Program-made: the position numbers and the translations under genes | Part shown: in pieces, positions 11,873-64,000 of the stretch | Layout of the letters: each line of letters starts with the position of its first letter | Position numbering within the stretch: position 1 is the stretch's first letter | NCBI RefSeq assembly: GCF_019649055.1 | Contig: NW_026570272.1 | Coordinates: 310,001 to 374,000, forward strand | Direction: 5' to 3' | Source of the DNA: Paramacrobiotus metropolitanus | Taxonomy: Eukaryota > Tardigrada > Eutardigrada > Parachela > Macrobiotidae | Length of the DNA: 64,000 nt | Notes under the pieces: model-generated | The model's database searches: none | What the model was told of the DNA's origin: nothing | Seen by the model: only the letters and a program-made list of their open reading frames with translations

Positions 11873-11879
11873 ATGTCCT

Positions 11880-35384: not shown

Positions 35385-35844
35385 TTTCCGGCGATTGAAT
35401 TTGCCGGCTGGGCTTCCAGATTTCCCGGAACTTGCGGTTACATGGGAGTGCCGCGGTACATGTGCAACATATCGCCCCAAACCATACTCTATTTGTTATA
35501 TCGGTTTACCTGCCGTCAGGCCTTTTAGTGTCGTTACTTGATACAAGCTATGTACAGCTGTGATTGCTCCTGTAAATTATCGATTCCTTCGACGCATATA
35601 TATTCAATTACACGGGTTATCTGTGTTCTGTACGTTCCCATGAAGTATAACTGCTCTTAATCGTCACGCGTTTATGCTCCGTGCGAGAAAATCAGATTAG
35701 GACCTGGCACGCTCAGTCAACCGTCACAAGAAACCCGAGTATATGTCGATTAACCCCCGGAGATTGGCGTCATTCTATCGCCCGCGGTGTTGTAGAAAAT
35801 ATTAACGGTCAGTTTATATTAAAGTGCCGGTTGTGCTCGACGAA
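35385..35844 (+). promoter_or_regulatory. Conserved upstream block of F-box gene A
   Basis: About 430 bp aligns, with patches of near identity, to the regions before genes B (40285-40802) and D (47684-48103). Shared landmarks are ATCGGTTTACC, GCCGTCAGGC, a TTGATTGCTCCTGTAAATTATCGATTC-like segment, a CGCATATATA box and AATCGTCACGCG. The last 75 bp before the ATG are almost identical in A and B. This looks like a promoter and leader duplicated with the gene. Confidence 0.65.
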
Positions 35845-38272
35845 ATGACCACGGAAAACCAGCCCCGACGGTTAGTCTATGCGGAACGCTGGTTTCTCAG
35901 CGCCCGTGACGCCCCGATCGCTCCGCCCCCGCCCAGCCCGGGTTCCGGGGCTGTCGACTGCCGGCAGATCCTGGCCAAACACCTGGACCCGGTGATCGTG
36001 GAGGTGGACGGCGGGAAGCACGCCCTGGGCTTCCTGTGCGATGTGGACCGGCCGGTGGGTCGCGTCCTAGTGGATTGGGGCTCTAACCGCCCGCCGCGGT
36101 GGTTGCCCTGCGACAAAGTCTACCAGCATGAGCCGCTCTCCCGGAGCGCCACCACCGCCGGGATGCCGGTCATGGCCGCGGTGCGCCGGGACTCCGCCGG
36201 CCCGTTCCTGTTTCGGCCGGGGCGCGTAGTCTGCACCGGTTCCCGGTGTCCTTCCGGTCTTGTTTATGTCGAGGCCGAAGCGGATCGGGAAGCGGGAGAC
36301 CCCTCGACCCTTCGGCGGCACTTCGTCCAACCGGTGCAGCTCCGCCGGATGTGGCCGAAATCACGTGGTGAACCGCACTTACACGCCCTGTCCCCGGTGA
36401 GCGATTACGGCCTCCTCGGCATCGACCCGCAGGTGGTGCGTCTGGACCCCGACCTGCGTCCTGGACAACTGGATTTAGCGCGGTTGATGCGGGCCTGCAA
36501 CGATTACAAGCCGGAGGTAAGTATACGCTTCGCAGAAAGTGTACAATTCAGGGCATGGTGCAGGTACGCTCTGCAGTGGGCCAGCGCGCTGCGCATCGCG
36601 GTGGAGGATCGGGACGTTCGGGTGGTCTTCGAGTACCACGCTACGCACGTCCGGTTCGCGCGGTTCCCGGATGGCGTTCTCCGGGAACTGGTCCGGGCGT
36701 CCTGCACGACCGCGGCGACGGCCACCGCCCGCGGAGGCCTGGACTTTTGGCTGCGGCGGCTGCCGTACGAGCTGCAGGTGACGGTCCTGCGCAGCATCCA
36801 GGACATCCACAGCGTGGTTAACGCTCGAAGGTGCGTTGCATATGTCAGACCTTCAATGATGTCGAAAAAGCCAGTTTCAAGAGATTTTACCGTGTAGTTA
36901 TCGAGATCCGAAAACCATGTCAAAAAGGGGACGTTTTTTTAAAGTCACGCGCTGTCCGTTTGTTGCAAAGGTCACGTGCTATCTGTTCGTTGCAGGGTGT
37001 GTAGCGCGTGGCATGACACGCTGACCGGCCACCGTCGGCACGTGACCATCGATCTGCAAAGGATTGCAGGTGGTCCGGAGCCGGCGCCCCGGTGGGCGCA
37101 CTTGATCCACGTTCTGGAACATTCCGTCGACCAGTCAACGCTGTCCTTGACACTGATGGACGGCGACCTCAGTCCGGCGCTGGAGGCGGTCGTCCACCGC
37201 TTTCTGTCGCTAAAGAGCGTCTGCCTTCCGGCGATCGTTCTGCGGAAGGTCACTTGTCAACATCCGCTGACCGCCATTTATCGGCAGCAGAGGTTGCACT
37301 GGGGCCGACTGGGCAATTTCAGCGTATTATGCCGGACACTGCATCTGCAAAAGGTCACGATGACGTCCCTCTTCGAGCCCATCGCTGGGTTGTGGTGCTC
37401 GCAGGAGCAGGTCCGCGCCGATCTGGATGTCTACTTAAGGAGGGTGTGCATCGATTGCATGCGGCCGGTCGACGATCAAGTGCGGGAGTTCCTCGGCGCG
37501 GTCAACCGCAGCTGCCGCGCCCTGACGCCCGCCGAATGGGAGGACATCAGTCTGGCTTGTGACGAGCTGGCTGTCGGCGCCGGCCATTCGTTCCGGGTGC
37601 CGTTGATGCTGAAATTGTAAGTACGCGCGAGGAGTTTGGTGCTTAGCGTATAAAGTTTGGAGATTATGCGGGGTAATGCTATGAGTGTGTTGTGTACTGT
37701 CCCGTCTCACGTTAATTCGGACAGATTTTTTAGTTGATTATATACAAAAAGTATTAATCAAATTTGCATTTATTTCCGGCGTACTGCAGGTGCGAGAAAC
37801 CTTTAATATGTATCATGGTACGAGTACAAACTATGCACCAGAACAAAACGGCGTTTACAAAAGAAACACTTCCTCTATGCTATTCTGATCGGGGATCGTA
37901 CCCATTACACAAATCGCGTTTCCCCGTTGTATTTGGATAGATATTCGCTGTTTAAAACTCTTTCGCCCGCTTTTGGCCTGCAGGTTGAACGAGCGACCAC
38001 AGCCGCCGCTGTCCCGGTTGGCCGCGCACGCCTTCCTCTACTCGTACCCGCTAATTCACACCGCCCCCGGCCCACCGCGGAGATCCCCGGCCGGCGGCTC
38101 GATGGAAGCCGGCGTCGTCAACACACAGACCCACCCTCACAGCCACGCCCACTCCCGCCCCACGCGGGCCAAAGGGCGCCGGCACCTCAGCCAGCACGAG
38201 GGCGTCTGGAGCACACCTTCTCCCGGCTTCACCGCTAAACATCCCTCCCTCCCGTTCTTTCCCTTGCTGTGA
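35845..38272 (+). CDS. F-box protein A with N-terminal Tudor/Agenet-like region
   Basis: Four exons (35845-36516, 36577-36830, 36996-37616, 37984-38272) give 611 residues. The start M-T-T-E-N-Q-P is the one kept in B and D. Residues about 30-110 (D-P-V-I-V-E-V-D-G-G-K...G-F-L-C-D-V-D...V-L-V-D-W-G...R-W-L-P) have the spacing of a small Tudor/Agenet-type barrel. The F-box sits across the exon 2/3 junction, about residues 283-325: L-P-Y-E-L-Q-V-T-V-L-R-S-I...R-V-C-S-A-W-H-D. F-boxes bind Skp1 in SCF ubiquitin ligases. The following 200 residues have an L-x-L-x-x-L flavour but no clear LRR count. Exon 4 is proline- and histidine-rich and ends H-P-S-L-P-F-F-P-L-L. Intron 3 holds a dispersed repeat and a LINE relic. 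The substrate is unknown. Confidence 0.82.
37630..37745 (-). repeat. Dispersed repeat in intron 3 of F-box gene A
   Basis: It is the reverse complement of the 34590-34705 copy, sharing GTTTGGAGATTATGCGGGGT. Confidence 0.65.
37795..37980 (-). pseudogene. RLE-LINE 3' relic in intron 3 of F-box gene A
   Basis: Read on the minus strand it gives K-Q-R-I-S-I-Q-I-Q-R-G-N-A and I-C-V-M-G-T-I-P-D-Q, the terminal block of the RLE-LINE copy at 4730-5215, whose nucleotide sequence it closely follows. It ends a few bases before the exon 4 acceptor. Confidence 0.7.
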
Positions 38273-39680
38273 AAGGGGCCGCTGCTTTTTATATGCGCAT
38301 ACGTTGACGATATGTTAATGCTATTAACAGTATACAGTAGCGTTTTACTATATATTATTAGCATCACATACCACCGGCATCATTTTAATTCCTTGTAAAG
38401 TTCTGCTCCACTAAAACTGCTGAAAACTGTTGCAATTAGCGCTAGAGTTTCACCGAGCATGTAGTCCGCTTATCCCTATTATTTTACTAGACCGGAAATG
38501 ATAGTACATAGCTGATGCTGACTACTGCATGCCTTTTATTTGCGCCTTATATGAATTTGATTGCTGTACCCCTGCCGGAAATAAAATCTTCCGTCAAAAC
38601 GAAGAAGTTCCGCTAGTGAGTTACAAGAACATCGTTATGCACGGTTCGTTAGGGTCACACTAAGGGAATAATTCGTACAGCGCCTGCTCGTACAAGTTCG
38701 GGCCACTGCACTCACTCGCACTAAGTGACGTGCAGCGCAGCGCTGAGCTCACACGGAGTAATGAGTATAACACGTAAAGGCACGTCGCAGTTCCAACGTC
38801 TGCACCAGTACAGCTGATGTTCAGAGTAGGAGCGATAAAACTTACTCATCTCATGCAAACATTCCACAAGTGAAGAACCTTCGCCTGGAATTCAACGTAG
38901 GAGCTCCTTTTATTCATGATGATTTCCATTATTATGAAAGGTAGATTTCAAGCTTTACATAGTAAGAACTGTGCGATAGCGTCTTCTAAATGTCTGAATG
39001 GACAGATAACTGGGACCACAACGACTCAACATACAGGAGCTCCTTGTTGCTGCCTTTCTTCAAACAGCGATTCACAAAGGTACGTTTACTGCGTTTATCG
39101 CTGCAATTTTGCATTTTTCTTTTAGAGACAACCACAGTGTAGACTGTTTATGAGTCGATGCTGGTTTTAGGTGCTATTCCGTCAGCGGAGCTCCGCACTA
39201 ACTTGTCCCATCTGCACCGTATTCCTTTACGGATAAAAAATGAAAAAACAGTCTAAATAAACCACCAACACCAAATGGACAATTAAGTTATAAAGAAAAC
39301 TAGGTCGCAACAAAAACTCCAACAAATTTTAATTGTTTTTACTATTAAACAATTTTGCAAGAACTGTTTGGCATTTGCTGCTTTTAAAATGCTGTGCTGT
39401 TTGGCTATTTATTTCCCAATTGGATAATATTGTGCCAGTTAGCGTTAGTGTTTCAATCCCGCCTAGTGGTTTTGCGCAAATACGGTTGGGTGAAACCTGG
39501 CCACTCACAGAGCGGATAAATGCTCGACAGGCCAATGCGAGAGCGGACATACTAACGTGCTCCGTTGATATGTGGAGTCATATCAACGCAACACGCTACG
39601 ATCTCACTTTTTCCGGGAGGGTACAGCCGTTGTCGTTGTAATGTTAAATTAATATCATTATTAATACATACATACCATAT
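38273..39680. other. Spacer with conserved downstream block of gene A
   Basis: About 38400-38590 (CCGGAAATGATAGTACATAG, TGCATGCCTTTTATTTGCGC) is shared with regions after B (43220-43390), the C relic (44720-44780) and D (50430-50540). The rest has no recognised feature. Confidence 0.5.
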
Positions 39681-39820
39681 TTGCCTCATAAAGGTCACCG
39701 CTCCGTCGACTACTTTAACCGCTGTTAACTGAATCGTGCAAGAAACCCTACCTCGCTCGCAACCGGAACTCACGCCACTGAAGAAGTTATAGAAAACGCT
39801 GAGGTGGTACAAGAACTTCA
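39680..39820 (+). repeat. Array-specific duplicated block
   Basis: It aligns with 43610-43770 and partly 50940-50990, beginning at TAAAGGTCACC and including GTGCAAGAAACC and CCACTGAAGAAGT. In the first two cases it precedes F-box exon 3 debris. Confidence 0.6.
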
Positions 39821-40087
39821 GTGGTAGAGTAAAGCCCGCTGAAAGGCTATTGTGGCTATGGAAACGCTCCAGCCGAATCCCGGGTCCCAATGCTGGGAAC
39901 CTCGGAGCCACGACCCTCGCTCCGTTGGCTCTCGTACAGCCTGTAGGTAGGTTCCCTGCGCAGTACCTGGAAAGTCCATTCACAGAGCGCTGCGCCGCCC
40001 GGAAACGGTTACGGGACTACGCACCGACTGCCGGACTTGACGGCGATCCGGGAGCACCACGCCAGCCCGTGGAGGCTGCCTGACAGT

Positions 40088-40232
40088 TCTGGACGGCGTT
40101 ATCAATCCGGGACAAGAGGAGACCGGAGGCGGAGACCAAACCGGGAGCCCTGTCTTTCCGGGGAGAGGCTCCCTCTGCCAGTGATGGTGCGATACAGCTG
40201 CGAAAGGTCACCTGTCAGCGCCACCCTATAGA
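40088..40232 (+). pseudogene. F-box family exon 3 fragment
   Basis: The stretch GGACGGCGTTATCAATCCGG through CTGCGAAAGGTCACCTGTCA follows the L-M-D-G...L-R-K-V-T-C-Q part of exon 3, with indels that destroy the frame. It abuts the upstream block of gene B. Confidence 0.6.
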
Positions 40233-40284
40233 AATATTTGGCAATTGTTTTATTCATAAACGACTCATGAAGGAAACAGAACAG

Positions 40285-40802: not shown

Positions 40803-43103
40803 ATGACCACGGAAAACCAGCCCCGACGGTTGGTCTATGCGGAACGTTGGTTTCTCTGCCGGGACGCCCCGATCCCTCCGCCCCCGCCCAGCCCGGGTGC
40901 CGGGGCTGCCGACTGCCGGCAGATCCTGGCCAAACACCTGGACCCGGTGATCGTGGAGGTGGACGGCGGGAAGCACGCCCTGGGCTTCCTGTGCGACGTG
41001 GACTGGCCGGGTAATCGCGTTCTGGTGAATTTGGGATGCTTCAACCGCCCCTCGCGGTGGTTTCCCTGCGACAAGGTCTTTAAGCATGCGCCGCTCCCCC
41101 GGAGCGAAATCACCACCGCGATGCATATGGAGGTCATGGTGGCGTTGCGCCGGGACTCCGCCGGTTCCTTCCTGTTTCAGGCGGGACGCGTGGTCAGCAG
41201 CGGTGCCCGGTGTCCTTCCGGCCTGGTTTGTGTCGAGGCCGACGCGGATGGGGATCCCGGAAGCGCTCGGGGTTGTTTTGTGCAGCCGGTACAACTCCGC
41301 TGGGGGTGTTCGAAATCGTCCCGGGAACCGCTCTTATACGGCTTGTCGCTCGTGAGCCCGAGCAGCCACCCCGACATCCACCCGCAGGTGGTGCGTCTGG
41401 ATCCCGGCCGGCATCCGGACCAACTGGATTTACCCCGGCTGCTGCGGGCTTGCAGCGATTACAAGCCGGAGGTGAGTAAGCGCGCCGTAAAAACAGCGGG
41501 AAGTTGAATAAGTCGTTGTTTTGCAGTGGGCCAGCGCCCTACGCGTCGCGATGGAGGACCGGGTCGTCCGCGTGGTCTTCGAGTACCACGCCTGCCACGT
41601 CAGGTTTCCGCGGTTCCCGGAAGTCCTCCTCCAGGAGCTGGTCGAGCGGTCCTGCATACTCCCGGTGGGCGGTCGACCGCGCGTGAGCATCCCGAGTGAC
41701 TTCTGGATGCGTCGGCTGCCGTACGAGCTGCAAGTGGCGGTCGTGCGGAGTATCCAGGGCATCCACACTTGGGCCAACGCTCGCAGGTCCGTAGTGGCGT
41801 TTACTTGGGACGTCCCAAAAAAGGTCACTCGCTGCCTATCCGTTGCAGGGTATGTACAGCGTGGTATGACGCGCTGGCCGGCGAGCGCCGGCACGTGGCC
41901 ATCGACGTGTGGCACTTCCAGGGAACGGAGGTGGATGAACCGGAGCCGAGTCAGCCGACACCCAAGTGGGCCCAACTAATGCACATCCTGCAGCACACCG
42001 TCGACCAGCGGACACTGTCCTTGACGTTGACGAACGGCAGCGTCGGTGCGGCACTGGAGGCGGTCGTCTACCGCTTCCTGTCGCTTAACAGCTTCCGGCT
42101 GCCGGAGATTATTCTGCGAAAGGTCATTTGTCAGCACCCGCTGACTGCCAATCACCGGGAGCAGCGCCTGGACTGGGGCCGACTGGGGTGTTTGGCAAAG
42201 GCGTGCCGGACACTGCATCTGCAAAAGGTCACGATTCTCTCCATCCTCCAACCGATCTCCGGGCTGTGGTGCTCGCGGGAGCACGTCCGCGATGACCTGG
42301 ATGTCTGTGTCGGGAAAGCCGCCATCGATTGTATGCAGCCGGAAGCCGGTCAACTGCGGCAGTTTCTCAGCGCGGTTAACCGCAGTTGCCGCGCGGTGAC
42401 GCCCGCGGAATGGGAGGACATTAGTCTAGCCTGCGACGAACTGGCCGTCGGCGCCGAACATGCGTTCCGTATGCCGTTAATGCTGAAATTGTACGGGTAA
42501 AGAGAGTGCCTGTTATTATTGTTATTATTATTATCGCACTACAGTAGCCAACCCCTTTTAATGGCGATATCTTACCAGGCTACTGGAAAATTTTATACTT
42601 TTTTTGGTTTGATTTTATGGGATAAAAGTTACCCAACCTAGAATACGAATCGAACCCGGGACATACAATCCTTAAAGCCAGACTTACTACCACCAGACCA
42701 TATAATATTATATGGGCCATTAACACAGTAAATGTATGATTATTACTTCGCATCCGCTGGTTGCTTCCGGTGTATATATAACTGCAGGTTGAACGAGCGG
42801 CCGCAGCCGCCGCTCTCCCGACTGGCCGCGCACGCCTTCCTCTACTCCTACCCGCTAATTCAGTCGGCCCCCGTCGCGCCTCAGAGGTCCCCGCCCCCGG
42901 CCGGCAGTTCAGAGGAAGTCTGCTACTACGGCCACAGCCACGCCGTTATCGCCGCCAGACAGCCCCATCGCGGCCACGCCCAGTCCCGCCGCCGGCGGGC
43001 CCACGGGCGCCGGCCGCCCGACCATCCCGAAGGCGTGTGGAACGTTAACACACCCGGCTTCACCGCTAGACATCCCTCCCTCCCCTTCTTCCCCTTAATG
43101 TGA
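40803..43103 (+). CDS. F-box protein B (paralogue of A)
   Basis: Exons 40803-41471, 41527-41786, 41849-42490 and 42788-43103 give 628 residues with the same phases as A. The N-terminal barrel-like region, the F-box (R-L-P-Y-E-L-Q-V-A-V-V-R-S-I...R-V-C-T-A-W-Y-D) and the C-terminal region are all intact. The first 70 codons and leader are nearly identical to A, suggesting recent duplication or conversion. The intron 3 donor is GTACGG instead of A's GTAAGT. If that intron is kept, the frame ends two codons later, which would give a short form without the proline- and histidine-rich tail. Intron 3 contains a tRNA-derived SINE on the other strand. Confidence 0.8.
42505..42722 (-). mobile_element. 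tRNA-derived SINE in intron 3 of F-box gene B
   Basis: On the minus strand the head has a pol III A box (TGGTCTGGTGGTAGTAAG) and B box (GGGTTCGATTCG) at tRNA spacing. An unrelated body of about 120 bp follows, ending in a simple (ATA/ATT) tail, the standard SINE layout. It is distinct from the Gly-like repeat at 2429. Confidence 0.7.
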
Positions 43104-43795: not shown

Positions 43796-44680
43796 TCAGG
43801 TGTAATTGTTCCAGCTGTCAATTATCGATCCCTCGCCGCATATATAAACATGTGTTGTGCTGTATATGGCACACCTGCATTTTGTACGTGCAGAAACAAT
43901 TTCCTTGCTGTTCGGTATGGGTGCGCGCGTTGCTCCCGCTCCCAGCGAAAAATTGCTCTTGACCTCCGGACCCGGAATCGGCCGCCGGAAGCCCCCTGCC
44001 GCTCGGTGTCACCGCGTCCAACCGCTACAACCGCCGTCCCAGCAACGCAGCTACGTGATCTATTTCCGGTAAGCTGTATCATTTATCAGCATATATGGAT
44101 GCCATGCGTCGGCCGGCTTCCCCACCATTTTGATCGTTGCGAGCCTCGAGGCCGGTGGACGCTGTCCTTGACACTGATGGACGGCGTCATACATCCGGGA
44201 CTGGAGGAGACCGTCCACCGCTGCCTTTCCGCAAAGGAGCCTCAGGTTGCCGCTGATCGTGCTGCGAAAGGTCACTTATCTACGCCCGCTGACCGCCAAT
44301 TACCCTCAGCAGCGTCGGAACTGGACCAAAGTGGGATACTTTGTCAAAAGCGTGCCGGACGCTGCTCCTGCCAAAGATCACGATCATGTCCCTCTTCGAA
44401 CCCATCGCCAGGTTGTTGTGCTCGCAGCCGCGCGTCGCCAGCGACCTGCACGTCTTCTTGAAGGACGCCTCCATCGACTGTACATTGCGGACGGAAGTCG
44501 GACAGCTGCGGCAGTTACTCAGCGTCGTCAACCGCATTTGCCGTCCGCTGACCGCCGACGAATGGGAAAAGGTCAATCGAGCTTGCGAGGAACTAGCCCG
44601 TGAGGAAATAACCGTCGGCACCGGCGGCCACTGGCTGTACGGGCGCCATAATCCTGAAACAGTACGATGTCATACAATTG
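43796..44680 (+). pseudogene. F-box family relic C (promoter scrap plus exon 3)
   Basis: Positions 43796-43890 resemble the tail of the conserved upstream block (AATTATCGATCCCTCGCCGCATATATA). From about 44155 to 44640 exon 3 can be followed through three frames: L-S-L-T-L-M-D-G, then V-L-R-K-V-T-Y, then L-F-E-P-I-A-R-L-L-C-S...V-N-R-I-C-R. Exons 1 and 2 and the F-box are missing. Not functional. Confidence 0.75.
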
Positions 44681-44839
44681 GAATTTCGATCACAACGGCG
44701 GCCGGAACTGATGACGACTAGCTGACTCTTACAGCATACTGCACGCCTTTAATTTGCACTTCTAAACGGGAAGCCTGAGGAATTTCTGTGAAAGCGTTGC
44801 GGCGGTGGAGTAACCAGCATATTAACAGCATCATCTGCT

Positions 44840-45100
44840 TCCAAGGGCAAGCTACCGATGCTGACGCTGCGAAAGGTCACCGGGCAGCACCCGTTGACTA
44901 CCCATCTACCCACAGCAATGCCTGGATGGGGGCAGACTGGATTATTCGACTCCGACGTGCCGGACACTGCACCGGCAAACATCATGATGGCAGGCATCTA
45001 CGCCGGGCTGTAGTGCACGCAGGAGAGGGCCTTCGGCAACCTCTCTGCCCCAGGAAAGTCTCCATCGACTGCATGCAGCCGGAAGGAAGCTAACTTCCCG
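44840..45100 (+). pseudogene. Second exon 3 relic of the F-box family
   Basis: CTGCGAAAGGTCACC (L-R-K-V-T) and the following Q-H-P-L-T-T match exon 3, and the later CCATCGACTGCATGCAGCCG block matches its end. Stops and indels break it. Confidence 0.65.
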
Positions 45101-46640: not shown

Positions 46641-46649
46641 GACGGAGGA

Positions 46650-46933: not shown

Positions 46934-47399
46934 TTAATTCAAGCTCATAGTCAGGGTGAGGCCCACCATGTGGAACTTGTCCAGATGGATCCCGGGATGC
47001 TCCCCTCCCACGTACTTAATTATGTCCGTCAGGACAAAATAGTCCGTCGTCTGGATGCGGCGGACGCGGTCATGGAGGATGAGGCGTTTGGTGGCGGGGC
47101 GCAGGCAGTGGAAGACGGGCGCGGTGAGGGTGTAGTGCAGGTGGGGCTCCTGGGCACTGGCTGCGCTGGTCTGCAGGACGAGGTTGGTCGTCAGCGCCGG
47201 CGCGACCAGGATGTCGTCCCACGCGGAGCAGACGGCGCGCAGCCGGGTGCGCGTTAGTGTGTCCAGCTGGCTGAATACCTCCTGCCACTCGTCCACGCCT
47301 AACGCCCGCAATTCATCCGTCGTCGCGTATTCCACCGGCGCCGGCAGCATGTCCGGAATGCGGAGTACCAGCGCGGCGTGCAGCGGTTCAAGCAGTTTC
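46934..47399 (-). CDS. F-box protein G, 3' exon
   Basis: The exon reads from a likely TTGTGGTAG acceptor at about 47400 to the stop at 46934. The segment from 47350 alone gives 138 residues. An F-box is visible: L-G-V-D-E-W-Q-E-V-F-S-Q-L...R-A-V-C-S-A-W-D-D. It is followed by a short region (V-F-H-C-L-R-P-A-T-K-R-L-I-L) that parallels the post-F-box part of the larger family. No N-terminal barrel region was found upstream, so earlier exons are missing or unrecognised. The opposite strand to A-D suggests an inverted or older member. Confidence 0.55.
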
Positions 47400-48103: not shown

Positions 48104-50280
48104 ATGACAACTGAAAATCAGCCCTATCGCGAGCGCGGGTTTCTCACCGCCCGGGACGCGCCAATCCTCCCACGGCCGCGCAGTCCGGATTTCGGGGTTG
48201 CCGATTGCCGGCAGATCCTGGCCCGACACCTGGACCCGGTGATCGTGAAGGTGGCTGACGCGAATTATGCCCTGGGCTTCCTGTGCGACGTGGACTGGCC
48301 GGGCGGTCGCGTCCTGGTGGATTGGGCCTGCTCTAACAACCCCCCGCGGTGGATTCCCTGGGCCAAAGTCTACCAACATGAGCCGCTCCCCCGGAGCGAA
48401 ATCACCGCCGGGATGCCGGTCATGGCCGCGGTGCGCCGGGACTCCGCCGGTCCGTTCTTGTTTCGACCGGAGTGGGTGGTCTGTGCCGGAGCCCGGTGTC
48501 CCTCCGGTCTGGTTTATGTCGAGGCCGAAGCGGATCGGGAAGCAGGAGACACCTTCACCCTTCGGCGGCAGTTTGTCCAGCCGGTGCAACTCCGCCGTAT
48601 ATGTCCGAGATCACGTGGTAGACCACACTTATATGACCTGTCCCCGGTGAACCTCCCCGACGTCGTCCCGCAGGTGGTGCGTCTGGATCCCTATCTGCGT
48701 CCGGACAAGCTGGATATGCCGCGGCTGATGCGGGAATGCAACGGTTACAACCCCGAGGTAAGTACACGCTGTGCTAAAGCTGTGCAGTGCGGGATATTGT
48801 CCAGCTTTGTTCCGTAGTTGGCCAGCGCGCTGCGCATCGCGGTGGAGGATCGGAACGTCCGGGTGGTCTTCGAGTACCACGCTACGCATGCCCGGTTCGC
48901 GCGCTTCCCGGAAGGCGTTCTCCGGGAACTGGTCCGGGCGTCCTGTGTGTCCGCGGTGAAGGCCACCGCCCCGGGCGGATGTTGCTCTTGGCTGCGTCGG
49001 CTGCCGTACGAGCTGCAGGTGGCGGTCCTGCGCAGCATCCGGGACATCCACAGCGTGGTTAACGCTCGAAGGTGCGTTGCATATGTTAAGGTTAGGTCAG
49101 CGCTTACAGTAATGTCTAAAAAGCCAGTTAAAGCGATTTAGGCATGTAGTTATCGACATCCAAAAACCACGTCAAAAAGGGACATTTCTGTGAGGTCCCG
49201 CGCTGTCTGTTCGTTGCAAAGGTCACGCGCTATCTGTTCGTTGCAGGGTGTGTACCGCGTGGTATGACGCGCTGACAGACCATCGTCGGCACGTGGCCAT
49301 CGACCTGCAGAAGATTCGAAATGCGGAAGAAGATGGTCCGGAGCCGACGCCAAAATGGGCGCGCTTGATCCACGTCCTGGAGCATACCGTCGACCAGCGG
49401 ACATTGTCTCTGACGCTGATGGACGGCGAACTCAGTCCGGCACTGGAGGCGGTCGTCTACCGCTTTCTGTCGCTAAAACACCTCCGCCTACCGGAAATCG
49501 GGCTGCGAAAGATCACTTGTCAACACCCGCTGACCGCCAATCACCGGCAACAGCGCCTGGACTGGGCCAAACTGGGATATTTGATGAAGACGTGTTGGAC
49601 GCTGCGTTTGCACAAGGTCATGATAACGTCCATCTTCGACCCCATCGCCGGGCTGTGGTGCTCGCAGGAGAACGTCCGCGACGACCTGAATGTGTACTTG
49701 TGGGAGGCCTCCATCGACTGTATGCAACCGGAAGCCGGCCAAGTGCGGCAGTTTCTCAACGCGGTCAACCGTGGCTGCCGGGCGTTGACGCCCGCGGAAT
49801 GGGAGGACATCGGTCTGGCCTGCGAAGAGCTGGCCGTCGGCGCCGGCGGACCTTCGTTCCGCGTGCCGTTAATGCTGAAATTGTACGCGTAACGGGACCG
49901 GTAACTAAATGAGCGAAATCTTTACTGCCGGTGCATGTAATTGCAGGTTGAACGAACGACCGCAGCGGCCGCTTTCCCGACTAGCCGCGCACGCCTTCCT
50001 CTACTCCTACCCTTTAATCCAGACCGTCCCTGCCCCGCCGCGGAGGTCCCCGGTCGACAGTCCGCTGGAGGCGTGTCCGCACGGCAGCCACAGTCACGCC
50101 GCTGCCCTCAGCAAGCAGCCCCGCCCGCACAACCACGTCCATTCGCGTCCAGGCAACCACGTCCATTCGCGGCGGACCAAAGGGCGCCGACCTCCCGATC
50201 ATCCTGAAGGCGTGTGGAGCACACCTCCGCCCGGCTTCACCGCTAAGCATTTCTCCCTTCCCTTCTTTCCCTTGCTGTGA
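48104..50280 (+). CDS. F-box protein D (paralogue of A and B)
   Basis: Exons 48104-48757, 48818-49071, 49247-49882 and 49947-50280 give 625 residues. All parts of A are present, including the barrel-like region, the F-box (R-L-P-Y-E-L-Q-V-A-V-L-R-S-I-R-D...R-V-C-T-A-W-Y-D) and the histidine-rich tail ending F-S-L-P-F-F-P-L-L. The intron 3 donor is GTACGC, and intron retention would stop after two codons, as in B. The exon 2 acceptor is TAG rather than CAG. Exon 4 has a short repeated N-H-V-H-S-R pair. Confidence 0.8.
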
Positions 50281-52955: not shown

Positions 52956-53994
52956 ATGCATGTATTCTGCGGCGGTGTGATGACGTGGAACGCCGTGGAA
53001 GTCCTCGTCGACGGCCGACTGCAGCACGGCCACGTGGTCAACGTCGTGGACGGCGGCATGCTGATTGACTGGCAGTGTGTCCTGGGCCCACAGCGCGTAC
53101 ATGTGCAGCTGGTGTAGTACGGACGTATCTTCCAGACCCGCCAGCCAGCCGAGGGACGCCCCCCACTCCCAGTCCCACAGGACCCCCACGACGACGAGAG
53201 TGCAGCGCGGATAACGCCGAGCATGAGGGCCTGCCGGTGGAGGTACTGCTGCGCCGCCATCCCAACGCCGCCTGGACCTGGTACCCTGGAACGGCGGTCC
53301 CCATCGCATCCTACCACTACGAGGAGTTTGTGTGGGTGCAGGTGCCAGTGCCGCACGGGCACGGCACCGTGGAAGAACTGCTGCCCTGGATGCAGGTGCG
53401 CGCGGGTGCCGACTGCCGTCCGCCATGTGTAGCGCCGGGCGCCTACGTCATCCGCTCGTGTCATCTGCCGGCGTCCAGCCTGACCGGCGGCGTCTCGGCC
53501 CAGCTGCTCAAGCAGGTTCTTGGTGGTGGATGGGGCAGAGTCTTGTTCGTTTCCCTCTTCAACCAGACACTCCTCTACCTGCAGCGCGCGATGGACACGG
53601 CGCTGACCGCTGAGCAAGTGGTAAGCCGTCTGTTCGACTTGACTAATTGCACTGGTAATTCTCTAGCTGTATATACTGTCCTGTAGCGGTATGGATAATC
53701 CTGTACTGTAATCGAAATTATGGAATTGTTCCAACGAATAACATACAGTAGGCTGTTAGGTGCGCACACGGTAGGTTTTCCGGTGACGATACCGGTAGGC
53801 TATCGTGATGGTTTCCGTCATCGTTAGAAGTTAGAAGCTAAGCACAACGATAACCTCGATACAAAGTTCGGCTCGGGCTCGGTCCGGTCCCACTAAATTA
53901 AAAATTAGTGTGAAGTGAATTTGCAAGAGCGTGACCAACCGCTACACTATAATTTTAGTTCACAATAGCATGATAACAATATCAAGAGTTAGTT

Positions 53995-54640
53995 TCACTT
54001 AAACAAAACAACATTTTCTACAGTACCCATGACAGAAGCGGCATTATCCCTTTGAATTGCTAAAGAAATATTCTGCCTCAAAAACTCGTGGCTGCGAATC
54101 TCGCCTGTTTGTAACTCGATCCTATTTCCGACCTCTTTAAGCAATTTCTTGGCTGATGTACCAAAACTTCCGAAAGTTTCGAATCCGACGGCAGCAAACT
54201 CATACCGTCCTGACAGGAAGTTGTATTTTCGCTCTTTTTCGACTTCGGCTTGGTCGGCTGCCGCTCCGGCTTTTACGCTGGTGTGATCCAAGTAAGACCG
54301 GGCAACGGTGTCGACAACGGTTACATCCCACGCCAAACACAGCCCTCTGGCCCAGGGAAAAGTGGTGATACCATCTGGACGTGTGTCGTTATCGTGGTGC
54401 ATTCCTCTAGGCTCCGTTCGCGCCGGAATGCCTGCTGAAACCAGAGCCCGTCGCAGAATATCATTAATGCAGTCATGTCTGGGCAGTCTTCCAGCAGAAA
54501 ATTTGCAACTCAATCCATGGTGGCCGTCAGCGGCGACTTCGGCACCACACCTGCACTGGTGCTCGGAAGATGCAGGTGCGCTTAGTCGAATAGCAACGGC
54601 AATGCGGAAGGTTTCGTCGTCCAATAAGTTGCCGATTGAC
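53995..54640 (-). pseudogene. RLE-LINE endonuclease fragment in intron 1 of gene E
   Basis: An open 209-codon minus-strand frame covers the whole restriction-like endonuclease. The knuckle is C-R-C-G-A-E-V-A-A-D-G-H-H-G-L-S-C, followed by R-P-D-G-I-T, W-D-V-T-V-V-D-T, V-G-F-E-T-F-G and the end S-L-A-I-Q-R-D-N-A-A-S-V. Everything upstream is missing, so it is a short 5'-truncated insertion. Confidence 0.8.
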
Positions 54641-54970
54641 CAACCGCTTGTGGGGAGGCAGTCTGAGTGAACCGACGACTTCCGGTTTGTTAGTCCCTCA
54701 CAAAATAAATTGTTTCTAAATGTTATTTCTCTTTTACTGCTCGAGTGCTCGACAAAATATTTTATTATATAGAGCGATGTTTCAAATGCTTATTTCTTTT
54801 GACAAAACGGTAATTCAATAATTCCACGGCTCACAAGATTCTACCGGAGATGCCCAACGATACCAATGCTTTCTATCGTTATCTACGATACGGTACAGGC
54901 ATGTGAGGAGAGAAGTCTTTCAAACGGCTCACGTACAGCGATAAAGTCTTTCGAATGATTTCAACGTATT

Positions 54971-55210: not shown

Positions 55211-56654
55211 TTTTGGATACCGGTACATAGGCTACAGCTTACAAGGCTAATTTCTGCTGCATGCTGACGATTAATACCGGATTACTTCGAACTACAGTCA
55301 GCCAACAAATCGTTGTACTTACACCAGTTGCATAGATATGGGAGGATGTCTTGTAGCTGCTGCCACGGATAATCCTTGTAAGGCGTTGCTTTCACTTCGC
55401 TGCAGGAAGGGTTCTGTGCTAAAGAGGATGAACGAAGAAGGTCCTCTGCGTCTGCAGGACTCTCGATTTGGCTGTGGCAGCAGCTGGAGCTGCAGGGGGT
55501 GTCGGTCATTAGGCCACGCAGTCGCAAAGTCGCGATATCAGCGTCCCATGGCAGCGATGCAGTGCCTTCCTTACGCCTGCCACTGCCGACGGAACTGCTG
55601 CTAGAAGTCTTCCGCTGCCTGGACTCCGTCGGGCGCGTGCGCTGCTGGCGGGTGTGTCCCGCATGGTACCGCCTCCTCCGCACGGTCGCCTTCTTCCCCG
55701 ATGTGCGCGTCTCCGCCACGGAGGGCGAGTACGGCCCGACGCCGTGGTTCTGGGAAGCCGTACCCAATGCCGGCGTGCCGGGCCAGTACTGGGTGGTGGC
55801 CTGCCTGCTCAAGTGCCTCACCGCCCGCACCCAGATGGCGGTCTTCGTTAACCTGCAGGTGGACCACGCCCGCCACCTGGTCGCACCCCTCCAGCACGTT
55901 CTCCAGCCCAGCCGGCGCCGACTTCCGACGCTGGTGTTCTACGACTGCGATTTCGGCGGTTGGACGGGTCTCGGCGGGCTAATCGGCCGGGCGGCTGACC
56001 TGGCCGTGCGGTGTAACTGCGAGCGGATGGTATGGAAAGAGTGCCGCATGGTGTCGGCGGCGGCGGACCAGATGCAGGAGGTCCTTGTCCCGCTGCACGC
56101 CTTCAGCACGCCATCACAGCCGGAGATGGAGCGGCAGTTGTGGGATGTCGCGGAGAAGAATATCGTCCTCCAGCAGCCGGTCAACCGCCCGCTGTTGTCC
56201 GCCTGGATTGCTGACGCCGTCGCCCAGCAGCGGGACAGGGAGACGAACGCCATTGTGCGGGTAGGCAATTTCTTCCCGGACGCACCGACATGAAACTAAA
56301 AGCAATGCATGCCGGTACTAACTAAGGCTTCCATGTACAGATTCTCAACGGCTGCCAGAGCGTGGATCCCCGTTCGACCACGCATTACCGCGATGTGCAG
56401 TGGACGGCGGCGACTCTCGGCAATGTGGACGTCAGTCAGCTGACGGGAATTGCGGCGGCGCGTCTGCACGACGCCATGGTCAGACTGCAGACTGACCCTT
56501 AGTTAGACCCTGCTGCTTTTAACCATCGTCGTGGTCATCCTGTCCGGACGGCATTCGGCAGTCGCAACAACACCGGCGTAGCAACAAGCATTTGCTCATA
56601 AATATAGGAAAAGCTGACTGTTGATTCCTTTTGCGTCTTTTTTCCTTTTCATAT

Positions 56655-57973
56655 AATTCAGTATCCTTGGTGCGCCATTGACAGCAAAAGCATGTGACGT
56701 TTTCCTGCGCAATAAATGTGAGCAACTGGAATTCTTCATATCCCGTCTTAAAATCATTCCAGCACATTACAGTCTATATCTCCTGAAAAACTGCTTGCTG
56801 ATACCGAAGTTACTCTACGGGTTCCGCACAGGCAGATGTTATCAACATGTGGAATTGACCGAAACTATAGATAAGATCGTTCGTGGCGGTTTGCAATCCA
56901 TTCTGAACATCCGCGTGAACGATGCACAGTGGAGCCAGATGACGCTTCCTATCAGGGACGGAGGAATGGGACTACGGAGTGCCAAGTCGCTAGTGTTTCC
57001 TGCCTTTTTGGCATCGGCGTACTCGGTGATCTCTTTGGTTTCAACAATCTATCGCCCTGCAACGGAAGAATCGCTCGATCCGATTGTGCAGCGCTGGATG
57101 GAAGAGACAGGCTGTGAACCCCCTGTTACAGAGCAAAGGAAATTCCAGTTTGCATGGGATCGGCCATGGATCGATAAAGAAGTGGTCTCAATGAGGCTGG
57201 CCATTACCGACCAAACAGATCGAGCGGTATTGTTAGCTGCGCAACACCGTGACTCAGGCGCATGGCTGAATGCGTTGCCTGCACCAAATTTGCGTGCGTT
57301 TTTGCGGGATGAAGAAGTTCGAATCGGTGTGGCACTTCGTTTCGGACTTCCAGTAGTAGAAGAACACGATTGCGTAAACTGCGGAAGCCATGTGGAGACG
57401 AATGGTCACCACGGTCTTTCTTGTACCAGCAGCAGAGGCAGATGGTCCAGACATACGGAACTAAATGCCGAAATAAAGCGGGCTTTGGAACATGCGGGGT
57501 ATCCATGTCAAAGCGAGCCACTCGGACTGTCAGGCATAAACAACACGCGGCCAGACGGCATGACTCTCGTCCCGGTACGGGATGGTAAGGCGCTGGTATG
57601 GGACGCTACATGCTGGGACACGGTAGCCGCATCGCATGTCCGGGCAAGTGCGAGTGCATCCGGTAGTGTTGCGCATATGGCCGAAGACGTTAAACGCCGT
57701 AAATACGCTTACGTGGAAAGGATGGGTTACCTGTTTTACGCTCTGGCAGTCGAAACTTTTGGCACTTTTGGTTCTGATTTTATGGAGCTCATTCGTTTCG
57801 CTGGCAGAAAGATTCGCGACGTGACAGGGGAACCTCGTTCTACTGCGTTTTTGAAGCAGAGATTAAGTCTAGCTGTAGTGAAAGGAAATGCTGCTGCTGT
57901 TTTGGGCACCTTGAATATGCGTCCTAGGGTTTTTGATAGCAATAACGATTTTGGCTGTTTTTTTAACGTTTAA
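56655..57973 (+). mobile_element. RLE-LINE, longest open copy (5'-truncated)
   Basis: A 431-codon frame starts within the post-polymerase region (L-G-A-P-L-T-A-K-A). It runs through L-L-K-N-C-L-L-I-P-K-L-L-Y-G-F, the knuckle C-V-N-C-x8-H-x4-C, R-P-D-G-M-T-L, W-D-A-T-C-W-D-T and the end S-L-A-V-V-K-G-N-A-A-A-V-L-G. There is no internal stop. The catalytic motifs P-D and D-x-T are kept. The reverse transcriptase core is absent, so it cannot move by itself. It lies 150 bp downstream of F-box gene E. Confidence 0.8.
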
Positions 57974-58639: not shown

Positions 58640-58795
58640 CACCGGCTGGCGGTCCCATGGAAGAACAGCCGGTTCTGCCGGTATCCCCCATCACACAGCC
58701 CTCGTCGTCCTAGCTACGTCCAGTCGGTGCAGATCGAAGGCGTATGGAGCACGTCCGCTCCTTCCCTTCCTCTCTTGCCCTTGCTTGTACAATTA
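58640..58795 (+). pseudogene. Relic of F-box family exon 4
   Basis: The run E-G-V-W-S-T-S-A-P-S-L-P-L-L-P-L-L at about 58735-58790 copies the distinctive C-terminal end of A, B and D. No other exon is nearby. It marks a lost member or transposed exon 8 kb beyond gene D. Confidence 0.6.
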
Positions 58796-58799
58796 ACCG

Positions 58800-59278
58800 G
58801 CCGGCGTTTGCACCAACTGGATGCACAGCAGCTGTCTAGATCTCTGGGGTCAAATGCCGATATCTTATGCCAGTAGCGCCACTGGAATGTGCAAATCACC
58901 AAATTAATCAGCTTGCGTACCAAGTTGAACGGTTATCTGTAACTTCCGCCGGAATGCCAACAACATCACACTAGTAACTTTATGGCCCTCTACGTGCCTT
59001 AAAACAGTCAAAATCGCCGACCTGCTTGTACAAAAGTATCTGACCACTAATCAGTGAACAGCGTAATCAGTAAATGTACAAAATAAAAACTGTAGACAAT
59101 CACAGCAAAAACTGCTAGGAAGATGCAAAATCGCCAAAAGAATGCAACCCATCTCAGTTAGCTCAGTCAACATGGCGGCGTACCACAAAAAAGGCAAAAA
59201 TAATTGTATTTACTCAGGAAGAACCCACGGTGTCACGGTCAAGACAGCGACTTGCAGAGTACAGCGTTACTCGGTCTG
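58800..59278. other. Spacer, 3' side of the Kelch gene
   Basis: Nothing recognised. Confidence 0.45.
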
Positions 59279-61663
59279 TTAACGCGAGGTAAACGCTGCC
59301 CAAGTGATCCCTTTTCGCAGCGGCAAGATGTGCTTCCAGGCCAGGAGTTTTTGGATGGCGACGCAGGGAAAAGCGCCGGGAGGGACATCATCCGGTGCGG
59401 CCAGCGGACCGGGGGTCCACTTGTCGGTTGCGGGATCATAGCTCTCCATCCAAAGCCCGCCCTCGTCGCCGTCAAGTCCCCCCACCGCCGTCAGTCGGCC
59501 GTCGATCAGCAGGAGCCCGGACTCGGCACGTGGTGTGCCCATGTCGGCTATATCAGTCGACGCACATATATATAGTCACACACCATCCCACAACATCAAC
59601 ACACGCAGCAGCAGTGACTGTGTGCACGCAGACTCACCTCGTTGCTCCCACTGGCCCGTCTCCACATTGTAGGCCTCCACACAGCTCAGCGGCACTGCGT
59701 TGCCGGGGCCGGCGTAGCCACCTGCGAATTAATATTACTGCGGTTAACGTCCATTACATGCGTAATAAACGCGTAAATGCTTAACGTCAGCCTCGTCCCT
59801 ATACAGATCAGTATACCCGCGCTGATGGACATTAACTGCGTAATCCTGCAAAGTATTCATGGCAAATATCGCTACTGACGAGGTACCAGCATGACCACTG
59901 TACAGTGTGGTACAGCGGCCACCACTCACCGACAACGTAAATCCACCCGTCTGGCCCGACACAAGCGGCTGGCCGGCAGCGGGCTGTCGGCAGGGGCGCC
60001 AAAGTCTGCCAGGCGTTCTCGTTGGGGACATATCGGAGGACATCATCACTTGTCACTCCACACTGCTGACCACTCCGCTAAACAAATACAGAAATCCGCC
60101 GTGCGCCACGATCCCACTCTCCCAGACAGTCGTCGGCTTGCCGGCCTTCAGCTGCCACTCCTGTAGCTCGTCGTAATAGCAGTACAGCTGCTGTCCGCCG
60201 ACGGCGTACTGATGTCCCCCGACAACAGCCAGAGATGCCTGGTTGACGTCCAGACCACAGGTGCCCATTCCGGACCACCGGTCCACGCTGGCGTCGTACG
60301 TCATGACAACCATCCCGCCCCCTTCAGCTGGCAGCATCGTCGCAATGGCGATCTGATGACCACGTGGAATGTACAACGGTGGGAATGCGCAGTTCGGTGG
60401 TGGTGGAGCGAAAGGGACGCTCTCGCATTTCCCGGTCTTCGAGTCCACGCAATCAATCATGCCCGACAGGTGATGGACGGCCACAATTACGGTTTCTGCA
60501 AGGTTATCATTACAGTACAGTGCTTGCAACAACAGTGTTACACTTGTTCACAGTGTGCAGTGAATCGAAATGTACCGTACCATACGAAACGCGCAGCGAT
60601 GGACGGCTGTTCGCAGCGGCATCGATATCCGCGAGAGCAGCCTCGGTAGCATCCTCGGCCGCTTTTGCCAAACGTTGCGCCAGGGGATGTTCAGGAAGAC
60701 GAGCTAGGAAACCGTTAGACAGCAAAGTCAGTCGCAGGTGCTGGAACAGTTCATCCGCCAGCGGGTGCCGCTGCTCAGCACAATCCGGAACTGTCAGCCA
60801 CCGCCAAACAGCATCAGCCACCTGGTCCTCGCAAGCTACGTACAGCTGGTCGGAGCGGATCAAGTGGATCATCTGTCAAATTCAATACGAGTACAGGACA
60901 GTGCATGACAAGAAACAAAGCAATGGCTGTTGACAAACGGCGGAAGGTGTTCGGGACACTGCGTAACACGCACCGCGTCGCTTGTCAGAGATGCCAAATC
61001 GCCACGTAAGGTCATCACAATGAAATGCTCCCCAATTAAGGCGCGACACTCGTCCGCCAGATCCACCAAGGCCAGGCGCACCGCTTCATTGTATATCTCC
61101 AGGCGCGGGTTGTCCACTTCCAGGCGCGTCCGCAGCAGCGTCGTGCATGCTCGCACAATCTGCGGAATCTCCAGATAGTCCGCAGCTTGTGCCAGAGCGA
61201 ATGCACCGCTGTCCTCGAGGCCCTCCAGGCTGATGGGGTGTCCGTACATTGCGCCGATGATCCTGCAAGTCGCCAAGAACCGATGGCCATGTTTAACTGG
61301 CCGTACAGATGCATGGTTGCCACTGCGATTCTGCTGCATGTGCACTTACTGCTCTAGAATGCTGTGGGGGATATTCGGCAGCGGGAGGTCCTTCTTCTGC
61401 GATTCCATCATCTCAGAACGGAACATTGCACGGAAAAACTGGCTGCGGGCCATGAGGACGATGCGGTGGCAGGGAATCCATGATGGCTCTGCTGGAGCAT
61501 CGGAAGGTGGGGCACCTCGCAGTTCCACATCGCACAATTCGGATCGGACGTCATTCAGGCCCTGCACCAATCCGTAGGCATCCAGGGAGACGGTCGCTCC
61601 GTCCTCGGGCAGGCGCAGTCGCTTTCGAGATGGTAAGGGGTTCGACGGACCAGCTTCTGCCAT
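59279..61663 (-). CDS. BTB-BACK-Kelch protein (KLHL type)
   Basis: Proteins of this layout bring substrates to cullin-3 ubiquitin ligases: BTB and BACK bind CUL3 and the Kelch propeller binds the target. Seven exons on the minus strand: 61663-61350 (BTB: E-L-C-D-V-E-L...I-P-C-H-R-I-V-L-M-A-R-S-Q-F-F-R-A-M-F), 61262-60974 (end of BTB and BACK), 60872-60581 (BACK), 60495 to about 60070, about 60060-59930, 59721-59638 and 59547-59279 (Kelch blades, with G-G doublets and W-x-x-L or W-x-x-R strands). All checked junctions are GT-AG and in phase, except between the fourth and fifth parts. There the frame must shift near 60050-60080 and no normal intron fits. A GGAGTG repeat 17 bp apart lies exactly there. 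So the gene may be damaged, or the sequence may hold an error. Confidence 0.82.
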
Positions 61664-61799
61664 AATGTGATGCTCGCCGTGTACAACCTGAACAGCGCCT
61701 CGCGACGATTGGGCGCCAAAAGACGAATGATGGGAGAACGGGCGCAGATTGTAATACACTAAATACAGTATGAAAGCAACATTTCGCACGATCTAACAG

Positions 61800-62555
61800 A
61801 TTTTGATCCACAGAATCACAAAAAGAGTTTTTTTCCGTAGACCGTATTCACCATCTGCCTGTTTGTTTGGGTTTCTCGCATCCTCATGACGTCACGGTGG
61901 CTGGCCAGCCGGTCCAAATGTTCTGAATGGCTTGCCACCGCCCGCTGTGGTCAACTGCTTGGTCTGGTGCGTGGAGTGGCGAGGTATACGTAAGTGACTT
62001 CCGCTGTTCCTCGCGTGCTGTGATACAGTCCAGGCGCTACTGTACTACTACCGTAGATTTAGAGTGTAATACAGTCAGTAATAAATACTCTGACTCGGTA
62101 CTCGATACTCGATAGTTCCCGCAAGCAGGTGAAAATCTGGAAGTTGTAGAACAGCGGTTCAGAAGTTCTGAATCAGAACTTCAGAGTTGATTTTGCTGCT
62201 GTTCATAATTGTATCAATCCTGACTTCTGAATTATGAAGACAATTATTATTTATTCGGTTAGTGTTTAATTTTATCTAGAGCTTGCAAGGATGTCACGAC
62301 GTGCAGGAGGGTTCTGCTCTTTAATATAGCGCAAACTAGACCGACTCAACAGCGACAAACAAATTTAATACGACAAAGAATTTTATCTCGTTATATGTTT
62401 CCATGCATCCTGAGTCCTGACTCAGGGGATCTGGATTAATCTTGCAGACGGCAGTGCGTAATATTATCTTTCCGGCACTGGCCAGTTGCCAGTGATCTGA
62501 TCAGTGATCTAACACGGGCAGACAGACGCAGTAAATAATAATCACGAACGGCGCA
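61800..62555. other. Divergent spacer between the Kelch gene and F-box gene F
   Basis: This is the head-to-head upstream region of both genes. No motif assigned. Confidence 0.4.
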
Positions 62556-64000
62556 ATGCTGATTTACGGCGATCGGGTGTACGCGTGGAACGCTGTGGAC
62601 GTTCTCGTCGACGGTCGACTGCAGCACGGCCGCGTCATCAGCGTGGTGGACGGCGGCCTGATGATTGATTTCCAGTGGGGCACTCACAGTCAGCTGACAC
62701 AGCGCGCGCAGCGGGTGGAATACGGACGCATCTTCCTCTGCAGCCAGCCGCCTCCGGGGCTCTGCCAACTAAACAACGACGTTCGTGTACAGTGGGTGCA
62801 GGTGTTGTTGCGGTATGAACCGGCGGCGGCCTGGATCTGGTACCGGGGACAGGTTCGCTCCGTCGCCTCCTACCGCTACGAGGAGTTTGTCAGCGTCGTA
62901 GCGGAACTGCCGCTGGCTCTGGTTCGCGCTGGCTGGCCCAGGAGACTGCTGCCCTGCTTTGTCCAAGAACTGGTGCCTTGCCAGCAGGTGCGCGAAGTGC
63001 AGCCATCCGCGGGCGTCGATGGCGGTCGGCCACGCGTGGAGCAGGGGGCCTTCGTGATCCGCTGCTGCCCGCTGCCGGCCACCGCGGTGGCCAAGCGGCT
63101 TGGACAGATCTTCGATGGTCGACGGCACAACGTCTTGTTCGTTTCCCGCTTCAATCAGACCCTCCTGTATCTGCAACGGGAGACGGGCACGGCGCTGACC
63201 GCCGAGCAAGTGGTAAGGGCGCTGCTGGTAGCCATTCATTTGCATCGAGCGCGAGGTGCTGCAGTTAAGCCTTCGTCAAGAGCATAAAACTTGTCTGACG
63301 CCACGAAGAGCGTACGTTACGCTTTTCCAATTCCACGACCCCTATACCATTTCCCAGGGGTATTGGCGCTCGCGCTCGTGCAATAATGTTGTTCGCGACG
63401 ACCGCTAGCATTATCCAGTTCAATTGTCCGTAATCAGCTAGAACGTTGCTGGTTCGTTGCAGGAACGTCTCTGTGCAGACCGCCGCCTACCCGAAGTAGG
63501 CTTCCGAACCGCGCCGCTCCTGATGCCGCGTCCGGTGCCGCTGTTGATAGCCAGTCCGCCCGCTCCACCGGCCTGGAAGCCGACCAGCTACCCGACCACC
63601 GGCCGTGCGGCGGCCGTCCCTCCCGTCAGCCTGCCGCTGCCCGTGGAGTTGTGGCTGGAAGTGCTGCGCTCGCTGGACTCCATCGGGCGCGTCCGCTGCC
63701 GCCGGGTGTGTCCCCTGTGGAACCGCCTACTGGCCCGCCACGCCTACTTCCCCGATGTGCGCGTCGCCGGCACAGAGGGGGAGTATGCGGCCGACCCGGT
63801 GGGGCCGTTGGAGCTCGAGGGCCTCAGCGTGTACTGGGTGGTGGCCTGCCTGCTCAAGTGCCTGACGCCGCGCACCACACGGGCGGTCTTCGTCAACCTG
63901 GCGCTGGACGACGCCCGCCAGCTGTCCGCACCGCTGCGGCACATGCTGCAGGAGCGCCGCCTACCGCTGCTGCTCTTCTACAAGTGCCGGTTCGGTGCCG
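62556..64000 (+). CDS. F-box protein F, second type (runs off the window)
   Basis: Exon 1 (62556-63212, 219 codons) and exon 2 (63463 to beyond the end) join in phase 0. Exon 1 has the barrel-like start (V-D-V-L-V-D-G-R-L-Q-H-G-R-V...M-I-D-F...V-E-Y-G-R-I-F) and a second beta-rich part ending A-L-T-A-E-Q-V. Exon 2 begins with a proline-rich linker. The F-box follows (L-P-L-P-V-E-L-W-L-E-V-L-R-S-L-D-S-I...R-V-C-P-L-W-N-R), then Y-W-V-V-A-C-L-L-K-C-L-T and V-F-V-N-L, aligning with gene E. It is open throughout and is the intact reference for E. It is likely an SCF ubiquitin ligase adaptor with unknown substrate. Confidence 0.8.

Follow-up and report, generated by a model that had tools for sequence, protein, structure and literature searches.

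What stands in front of the F-box in a group of tardigrade genes, and how widely has that arrangement spread? The question is raised by a window of 64,000 nucleotides from Paramacrobiotus metropolitanus (bases 310001-374000 of contig C52, NW_026570272.1, in an assembly of 169.8 Mb and 533 contigs), a term which we use for the whole stretch analysed. It contains three paralogous genes, A, B and D, and two relatives of a second type, E and F. An F-box normally couples a protein to the protein-disposal machinery, and in these genes it follows an N-terminal region which the initial annotation had described as Tudor/Agenet-like. Taking all parts of the reading together, we consider it probable that the genes encode F-box proteins which begin with the amino-terminal module of the FMR1/FXR family, duplicated and since diverged, and which are present in hundreds of copies and act as adaptors of the Skp1-Cul1-F-box (SCF) type. 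The homology and the architecture are highly likely, the SCF role, predicted from sequence, is fairly likely, and the choice of RNA-protein complexes (RNPs) as targets, made by analogy, is tentative and on balance doubtful. The order of the parts, the copy number and the decay of some copies are direct observations.

The gene models of the window were rebuilt from the raw sequence. Genes A (35845-37620), B (40803-42500) and D (48104-49892), all on the plus strand, encode proteins of 516, 526 and 517 amino acids in which the N-terminal region, the F-box and a tail follow each other in this order. Each has three exons and GT-AG introns at matching places, with phases 0 and 2 in all three genes, and the spliced frames are free of internal stops; they had been taken for intact paralogues with common exon phases, and this description holds. 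In gene A, exon 1 (35845..36516) encodes Tudor1, Tudor2 and the start of a KH0-like part, exon 2 (36577..36830) the rest of the KH0-like part and the first half of the F-box (LPYELQ...NARR; PF12937 E 1e-4, below the cut-off), and exon 3 (36996..37620) the second half of the F-box (VCSAWHD) and the conserved tail. The corresponding exons lie at 40803..41471, 41527..41786 and 41849..42500 in gene B and at 48104..48757, 48818..49071 and 49247..49892 in gene D, exon 1 holding the module and exon 3 the end of the F-box and the tail in both. Intron 1 of gene A is only 60 bases long and open in frame, so that its retention is possible. By eye, the 3' flanks of the three genes are alike from window positions 37889, 42732 and 49909 onwards, and the duplicated unit therefore seems to be larger than the gene.

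The F-box itself was found as had been claimed, above the Pfam cut-off in E and F and below it in A, B and D. These three genes scored 22.4, 17.7 and 23.1 bits with PF12937 (cut-off 24.3; E-values from 6e-5 to 0.003) and 17.7, 12.5 and 18.3 bits with PF00646 (cut-off 20.5), and the assignment of their F-boxes is based on these sub-cut-off E-values together with homology. PF00646 is passed by F with 26.3 bits and by the F-box exon of E with 28.9 bits, and the Pfam F-box cut-off is also met by three loci elsewhere in the genome, L037, L077 and L078. In A, B, D and F, every family that Pfam listed at E<=10 was an F-box family, and none was an LRR, WD40, Kelch, FBA or FTH domain. The genome contains four Skp1-family matches over the cut-off.

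What, then, is the N-terminal region? We distinguish four types of it: type 1 in A, B and D, type 2 in E and F, type 3, which was found through a match to the Pfam family Tudor_FRX1, and type 4, made up of short first exons. By eye, exon 1 of type 2 follows the layout of FMRP residues 1-210, with a pair of barrel-like repeats and then a third, alpha/beta part. The closest likeness was seen in L077, on contig C49, whose search against the PDB gave six significant matches, all of them FMRP, FXR1 or FXR2 (E 3.5e-10 to 2.8e-5), spanning Tudor1-Tudor2-KH0 in the same register, with the next match at E 0.61. Its module gave hhalign P values of 8.7e-14 against FMR1 and 2.6e-12 against type 2, and its next exon carries a Pfam F-box over the cut-off (E 7.3e-8). 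Since Pfam on single type-2 members gave almost nothing, we turned to profile-profile comparison, using a four-row FMR1/FXR profile as reference, a 29-row profile of type 2 and a type-3 profile of 17 of the 18 rows (L059 was missed by the pattern). Type 3 matched FMR1 with P 5.8e-11, the alignment running through both Tudors into the start of KH0; type 2 matched it with P 1.4e-6 over the two Tudors (4.1e-6 with a 24-row alignment), and the two types combined gave P 4.7e-12. None of 200 column-shuffled FMR1 decoys reached the observed scores of 74.3 for type 3 and 46.7 for type 2, the best decoys scoring 25.1 and 22.1, and reversed FMR1 alignments stayed below them as well, at 16.4 and 15.7. 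When a profile of 24 type-2 copies was run against the PDB, FXR1 ranked first (E 0.038) and FXR2 second (E 0.13), in register over both Tudors. The types are also related to each other, type 3 to type 2 with P 3e-29 over 187 columns and type 1 (five rows) to type 2 with P 8e-8 and to type 3 with P 3.2e-6 over 184 columns. Judged from sequence, homology to the FMRP/FXR module is established directly for types 2 and 3 and L077, and for type 1 through them, which sharpens the earlier Tudor/Agenet assignment to the FMRP/FXR amino-terminal module, with a KH0-like part.

The genome has one recognisable FMR1 of its own (L056), with Tudor_FRX1 and KH_9 over the cut-off; against the PDB its N-terminal part matches FMRP with E 3e-36 and its KH1-KH2 part with E 1.9e-46, and an RGG region is visible by eye. 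When residues 1-212 of this protein were used as a genome query, 86 non-self matches were obtained at E<=10, of which 48 had E<1, where about one is expected, and five were below 0.001. Half of them (43 of 86) overlap listed modules, and 17 are followed by one of the best 150 F-boxes on the same strand, at a distance of up to 3 kb, against none on the opposite strand. A genome search with the Tudor_FRX1 model at E<=10 gave 27 matches, those over the cut-off being FMR1 and three type-4 exons and the other 23 lying below it; L056 was the one strong match both of this search and of that with the FMR1 query. The type-4 exons are L043, L044, L045, L047 and L054 (contigs C106, C209 and C54); L054 shows a KH0-like stretch by eye without a KH_9 match, and an F-box remnant below the cut-off lies downstream of it. 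The module in this family shares with those of FMRP, FXR1 and FXR2 (PDB 4QVZ, 3KUF, 3H8Z) the order of Tudor1, Tudor2 and a putative KH0, the register and several pocket residues. Beyond the module the likeness ends: FMR1 proper continues with KH1, KH2 and RGG and no F-box was seen in it, whereas in the family an F-box and a new tail stand in their place, with no Pfam KH family in A, B, D, F or the second exons of L077 and L078. As whole proteins, the members therefore do not belong to the FMR1 family.

Several results weigh against this reading. Type 1 alone compares weakly with FMR1 (P 0.0029 with five rows, 0.0013 with three). The PDB search with 24 type-2 copies ranked the ribosomal protein uL24m third and fourth and FMRP last of six (E 1.3), with Fn14 also between the uL24m group and FMRP, and the type-3 PDB profile search returned four uL24m chains, the best at E 0.05, and no FXR protein. 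Judged by the E-values, none of the 24 type-2 and 18 type-3 members reached the Pfam cut-off for Tudor_FRX1, KH_9 or Agenet; KH_9 had no match in any family member scanned (these two sets, type 4, L077 and L078), and direct alignment of KH0 is confined to L077 and to type 3, where it covers the start of the domain. The other half of the FMR1-query matches (43 of 86) fall outside the module lists, and AlphaFold2 models from three-row alignments had mean pLDDT (predicted local distance difference test) values of 36.9 for exon 1 of F and 33.7 for exon 1 of A, too low for a fold comparison. The position of FMRP Y96, one of the putative pocket residues, is V in 21 of the 24 type-2 copies, and none of the 117 counted type-1 places, A, B and D included, lies near a listed F-box, the F-box of A, B and D being split by an intron.

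Could the region then be an unrelated pair of SH3-like barrels, for example of the plant Agenet or the KOW kind, whose likeness to FMRP is convergent? The uL24m chains would fit such an origin, as would the Agenet matches, which reach E 0.0016 at best and occur in two of the 24 type-2 members. We nevertheless regard it as very unlikely, given that L077 is significant only to FMRP/FXR chains, in a register that is kept as far as KH0, that the hhalign P values and decoys favour FMR1, and that Tudor_FRX1 ranks first among the Pfam families for the type-3 reference member (E 0.00098). A different objection is that the module and the F-box are neighbouring but separate genes, since an intron-sized gap parts them in F and many other copies and the gene models were derived from DNA alone. 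In L037 (C93:237751-238317, plus strand), however, both lie within a single open frame of 370 amino acids, with an F-box over the Pfam cut-off at residues 234-267, and among the listed matches the two parts are associated on the same strand and in the same order. For 37 of the 150 listed F-boxes, the best-scored of 1080 first-look candidates, a listed module lies on the same strand no more than 3 kb upstream (15 of type 2, 22 of type 3, none of type 1), a number which is a floor because both lists hold the best 150 only. No listed F-box has a listed module on the opposite strand, and the six with a module downstream on the same strand could be explained by tandem arrays. Separate genes thus seem to us scarcely credible.

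A direct look at individual loci points the same way. In the 1.5 kb of DNA downstream of the 30 best type-2 loci, which are the best matches to F and not a random sample, an F-box match on the strand of the module was found in 24 and none in six; two weak F-box matches (E 0.027 and 0.038) lay elsewhere. The profile used here was made from the eight best F-boxes of the genome, some of which may belong to the family under study. The module was recovered from 29 of the 30 loci (L041 was missed by the pattern), and the 24-row alignment leaves out L018, L028, L034, L036 and L038, which are truncated or close to others. F-box-like sequence was also recognised by eye in L055 and L070-L074; L070-L074 had been chosen for their nearby listed F-box and so do not test the association independently. 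In a crude scan for splice acceptors ahead of the F-box, L013, L016, L017, L025 and L034 showed an acceptor of phase 0 with a Glu codon after it, and F agrees by eye; in the remaining loci, L055-L078 included, the scan detected either no F-box pattern or no acceptor of this kind. An intron common to the copies ahead of the F-box is only suggested by this pattern.

How local is the family? It had been called locally expanding, which proved too narrow, for the module was found at hundreds of places and the family is genome-wide. Exon 1 of A gave 150 matches from 306 candidates, 30 of them at E<1e-9, with a long weak tail at residues 48-130; exon 1 of F gave 710 candidates, the best 150 all at E<=1.9e-13; and a type-3 query gave at least 151 matches from 865 candidates, 150 of them listed at E<=5.5e-20. 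Counting 117 matches of type 1 (31 rows with E above 1e-3 were left out, as were two more fragments at C213) and 150 each of types 2 and 3, we arrived, after merging, at no fewer than 417 distinct places of the module besides FMR1, 88 of which are weak type-1 matches (E 2e-8 to 1e-3). This is a floor for places and not a count of genes, since it includes fragments and decayed copies, E among them. None of the 88 weak places lies near one of the best 150 F-boxes, and they may be module-only relatives or carriers of split F-boxes. Some 119 weak type-1 rows match mainly residues 48-130 of A, many of them in open frames of about 300 amino acids (contigs C129, C105, C81, C41, C46, C141 and others).

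Is such a number the outcome of neutral birth and death, many copies having little function? Genomic drift of this kind would agree with the decay of E and of a relic at 44-45 kb of the window, with the internal stops in five of the 150 type-2 and 11 of the 150 type-3 listed matches and with the transposon-like fragments seen by eye among the copies of the window. Against this, 145 and 139 of the same matches have no internal stop, and A, B and D are under purifying selection on average, their pairwise ratios of non-synonymous to synonymous substitution (dN/dS) being 0.42-0.46 overall; we hold drift as the cause of the family's size to be unlikely. By region, the tail gave 0.34-0.38, the F-box 0.40-0.60 and exon 1 0.43-0.55, and the short stretch of KH0-like part and linker gave 0.50-0.72. 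As averages they give no sign of the selection on substrate recognition that the initial annotation had proposed, although a few sites may be under positive selection. The lower values of the tail than of exon 1 also bear on which part would hold the substrate. Most known F-box proteins have their substrate domain C-terminal of the F-box, and the tail could be the receptor here as well, with the module serving for localisation, dimerisation or attachment to RNPs or FMR1. This division of labour is a serious possibility, towards which we do not lean: it is for the module that a protein-binding relative can be recognised, and Pfam finds F-box families and nothing else in the four proteins A, B, D and F.

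If the adaptor reading is followed, the amino-terminal module of an FMR1/FXR protein (Tudor1, Tudor2 and KH0) would have been duplicated and have diverged, and a copy of it would have been fused ahead of an F-box and then amplified to hundreds of copies. The F-box would dock on Skp1-Cul1, the FMRP-like module, the variable tail or both would hold a substrate, and the substrate would be ubiquitinated. As for the nature of the substrate, components of RNA-protein complexes may be the likeliest, by analogy with the FMRP module, for which binding of methylated and RGG-containing RNP proteins has been reported. PMC5430443 reports that FMRP 1-200 binds FUS, potentially via RGG motifs, and doubts a histone role, and for this reason RNP proteins are our first guess. 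One may go further and imagine an FMRP module turned into a diversified repertoire of several hundred SCF adaptors which recognise RNA-protein complexes of the host, of transposons or of viruses, a degradation counterpart of an immune receptor repertoire, and founded by a single fusion of an FMR1 duplicate with an F-box gene; we consider this rather improbable.

Whether the module could still read methyl-lysine is uncertain. In PMC2970552 the methyl-lysine pocket of FXR1 is placed at Y95, 'W97', V66 and E104, of which we read 'W97' as W79; for FMRP, PMC5430443 treats F32 and Y96 as putative pocket residues. Of the 24 type-2 copies, 23 have F and one has W at the F32 position, and the V, W and E positions are kept in 23, 24 and 23 copies, respectively. 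At the Y96 position the genome's own FMR1 has, by alignment, I. As far as the residues tell, type 2 keeps the core of the fold and the larger part of the pocket. The pocket is only partly kept, and the classic methyl-lysine reading is therefore doubtful.

The known classes of SCF F-box proteins are FBXL, FBXW and FBXO, with F-box/FTH proteins in nematodes and F-box/FBA and Kelch proteins in plants. The family described here differs from them in having its extra domain N-terminal of the F-box and of the FMRP type, and to our knowledge no proteins other than those of the small FMR1/FXR family have been known to carry the FMRP amino-terminal module. Among the open-licence papers listed by our searches, which leaves other print possible, none described an F-box protein with an FMRP-type or Tudor/Agenet module, and Pfam recognised no known substrate domain in A, B, D or F; both results agree with the view that the arrangement is no standard class. 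There are parallels to parts of it. According to PMC8665587, Caenorhabditis F-box genes show large lineage-specific copy numbers, and those families resemble ours in the F-box, a variable recognition region and this copy number. The nematode fusion of an F-box with a Tc1-mariner helix-turn-helix domain, of which 496 of 497 cases were in nematodes according to the main text of PMC12062965, likewise combines a new domain fused to the F-box with subsequent multiplication, but that domain is a transposase helix-turn-helix and not an FMRP module; the same main text contains no mention of Tudor, Agenet, FMR1 or tardigrad. A link between an F-box ligase and an FMR1-family protein also exists in SCF-Fbxo4, for which FXR1 is a substrate according to PMC5688124; there FXR1 is the target, whereas here the FMR1-like module is part of the F-box protein. 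As the front part of hundreds of F-box proteins, the FMRP module would provide a natural mutational library, which would show the positions that matter outside the usual setting of FMRP, and would link RNP biology and ubiquitin ligases within one polypeptide. The family is also a clear example, open to testing, of how an animal captured a domain and then amplified it massively.

The other members in the window had been recognised in part. F is confirmed, with an open frame throughout its in-window part, and runs past the window end: its exon 1 (62556..63212, plus strand) encodes a complete Tudor1-Tudor2-KH0-like module of type 2 with 219 amino acids, its exon 2 (63463..64000, plus strand, extending to about 64308) the F-box (63631-63741) and the tail, and a further exon was matched at 64795-65010, in the next stretch of the contig. 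E did not stand as a sound type-2 member. Its module (52956..53620, plus strand) is interrupted in frame by a TAG at 53115-53117 and moves to another frame before 53228, and its F-box exon and tail pieces lie at 55577..56490 (55577-56275 and 56344-56490) on the same strand; a fragment labelled by eye as retroelement-like, 53995-54789 on the minus strand, sits in the gap between the module and the F-box exon. The decayed copies were borne out by a type-1 relic at 44096..45082 (plus strand), where tblastn of A found tail pieces in differing frames (44096-44347, 44235-44342, 44338-44625 and 44852-45082). Absent from the initial annotation was a type-3-like F-box exon between B and D (46934..47398, minus strand; F-box-like with E 5.3e-4, below the Pfam cut-off), in front of which the module profiles found no module.

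Further elements of the window were recognised by eye. BTB-kelch-like open frames, an architecture of the CUL3-type adaptors, adjoin F at 60053-61792 on the minus strand. Open frames resembling non-LTR-type (non-long-terminal-repeat) reverse transcriptases occupy 15603-18768 on the minus strand, and related-looking retroelement fragments were seen at 9884-11879 (minus), at 56657-57973 (plus) and in the fragment within E already mentioned. Exons resembling methionyl-tRNA synthetase, eRF1 and a serpin lie at 488-2172, 23300-26991 and 29009-30220.

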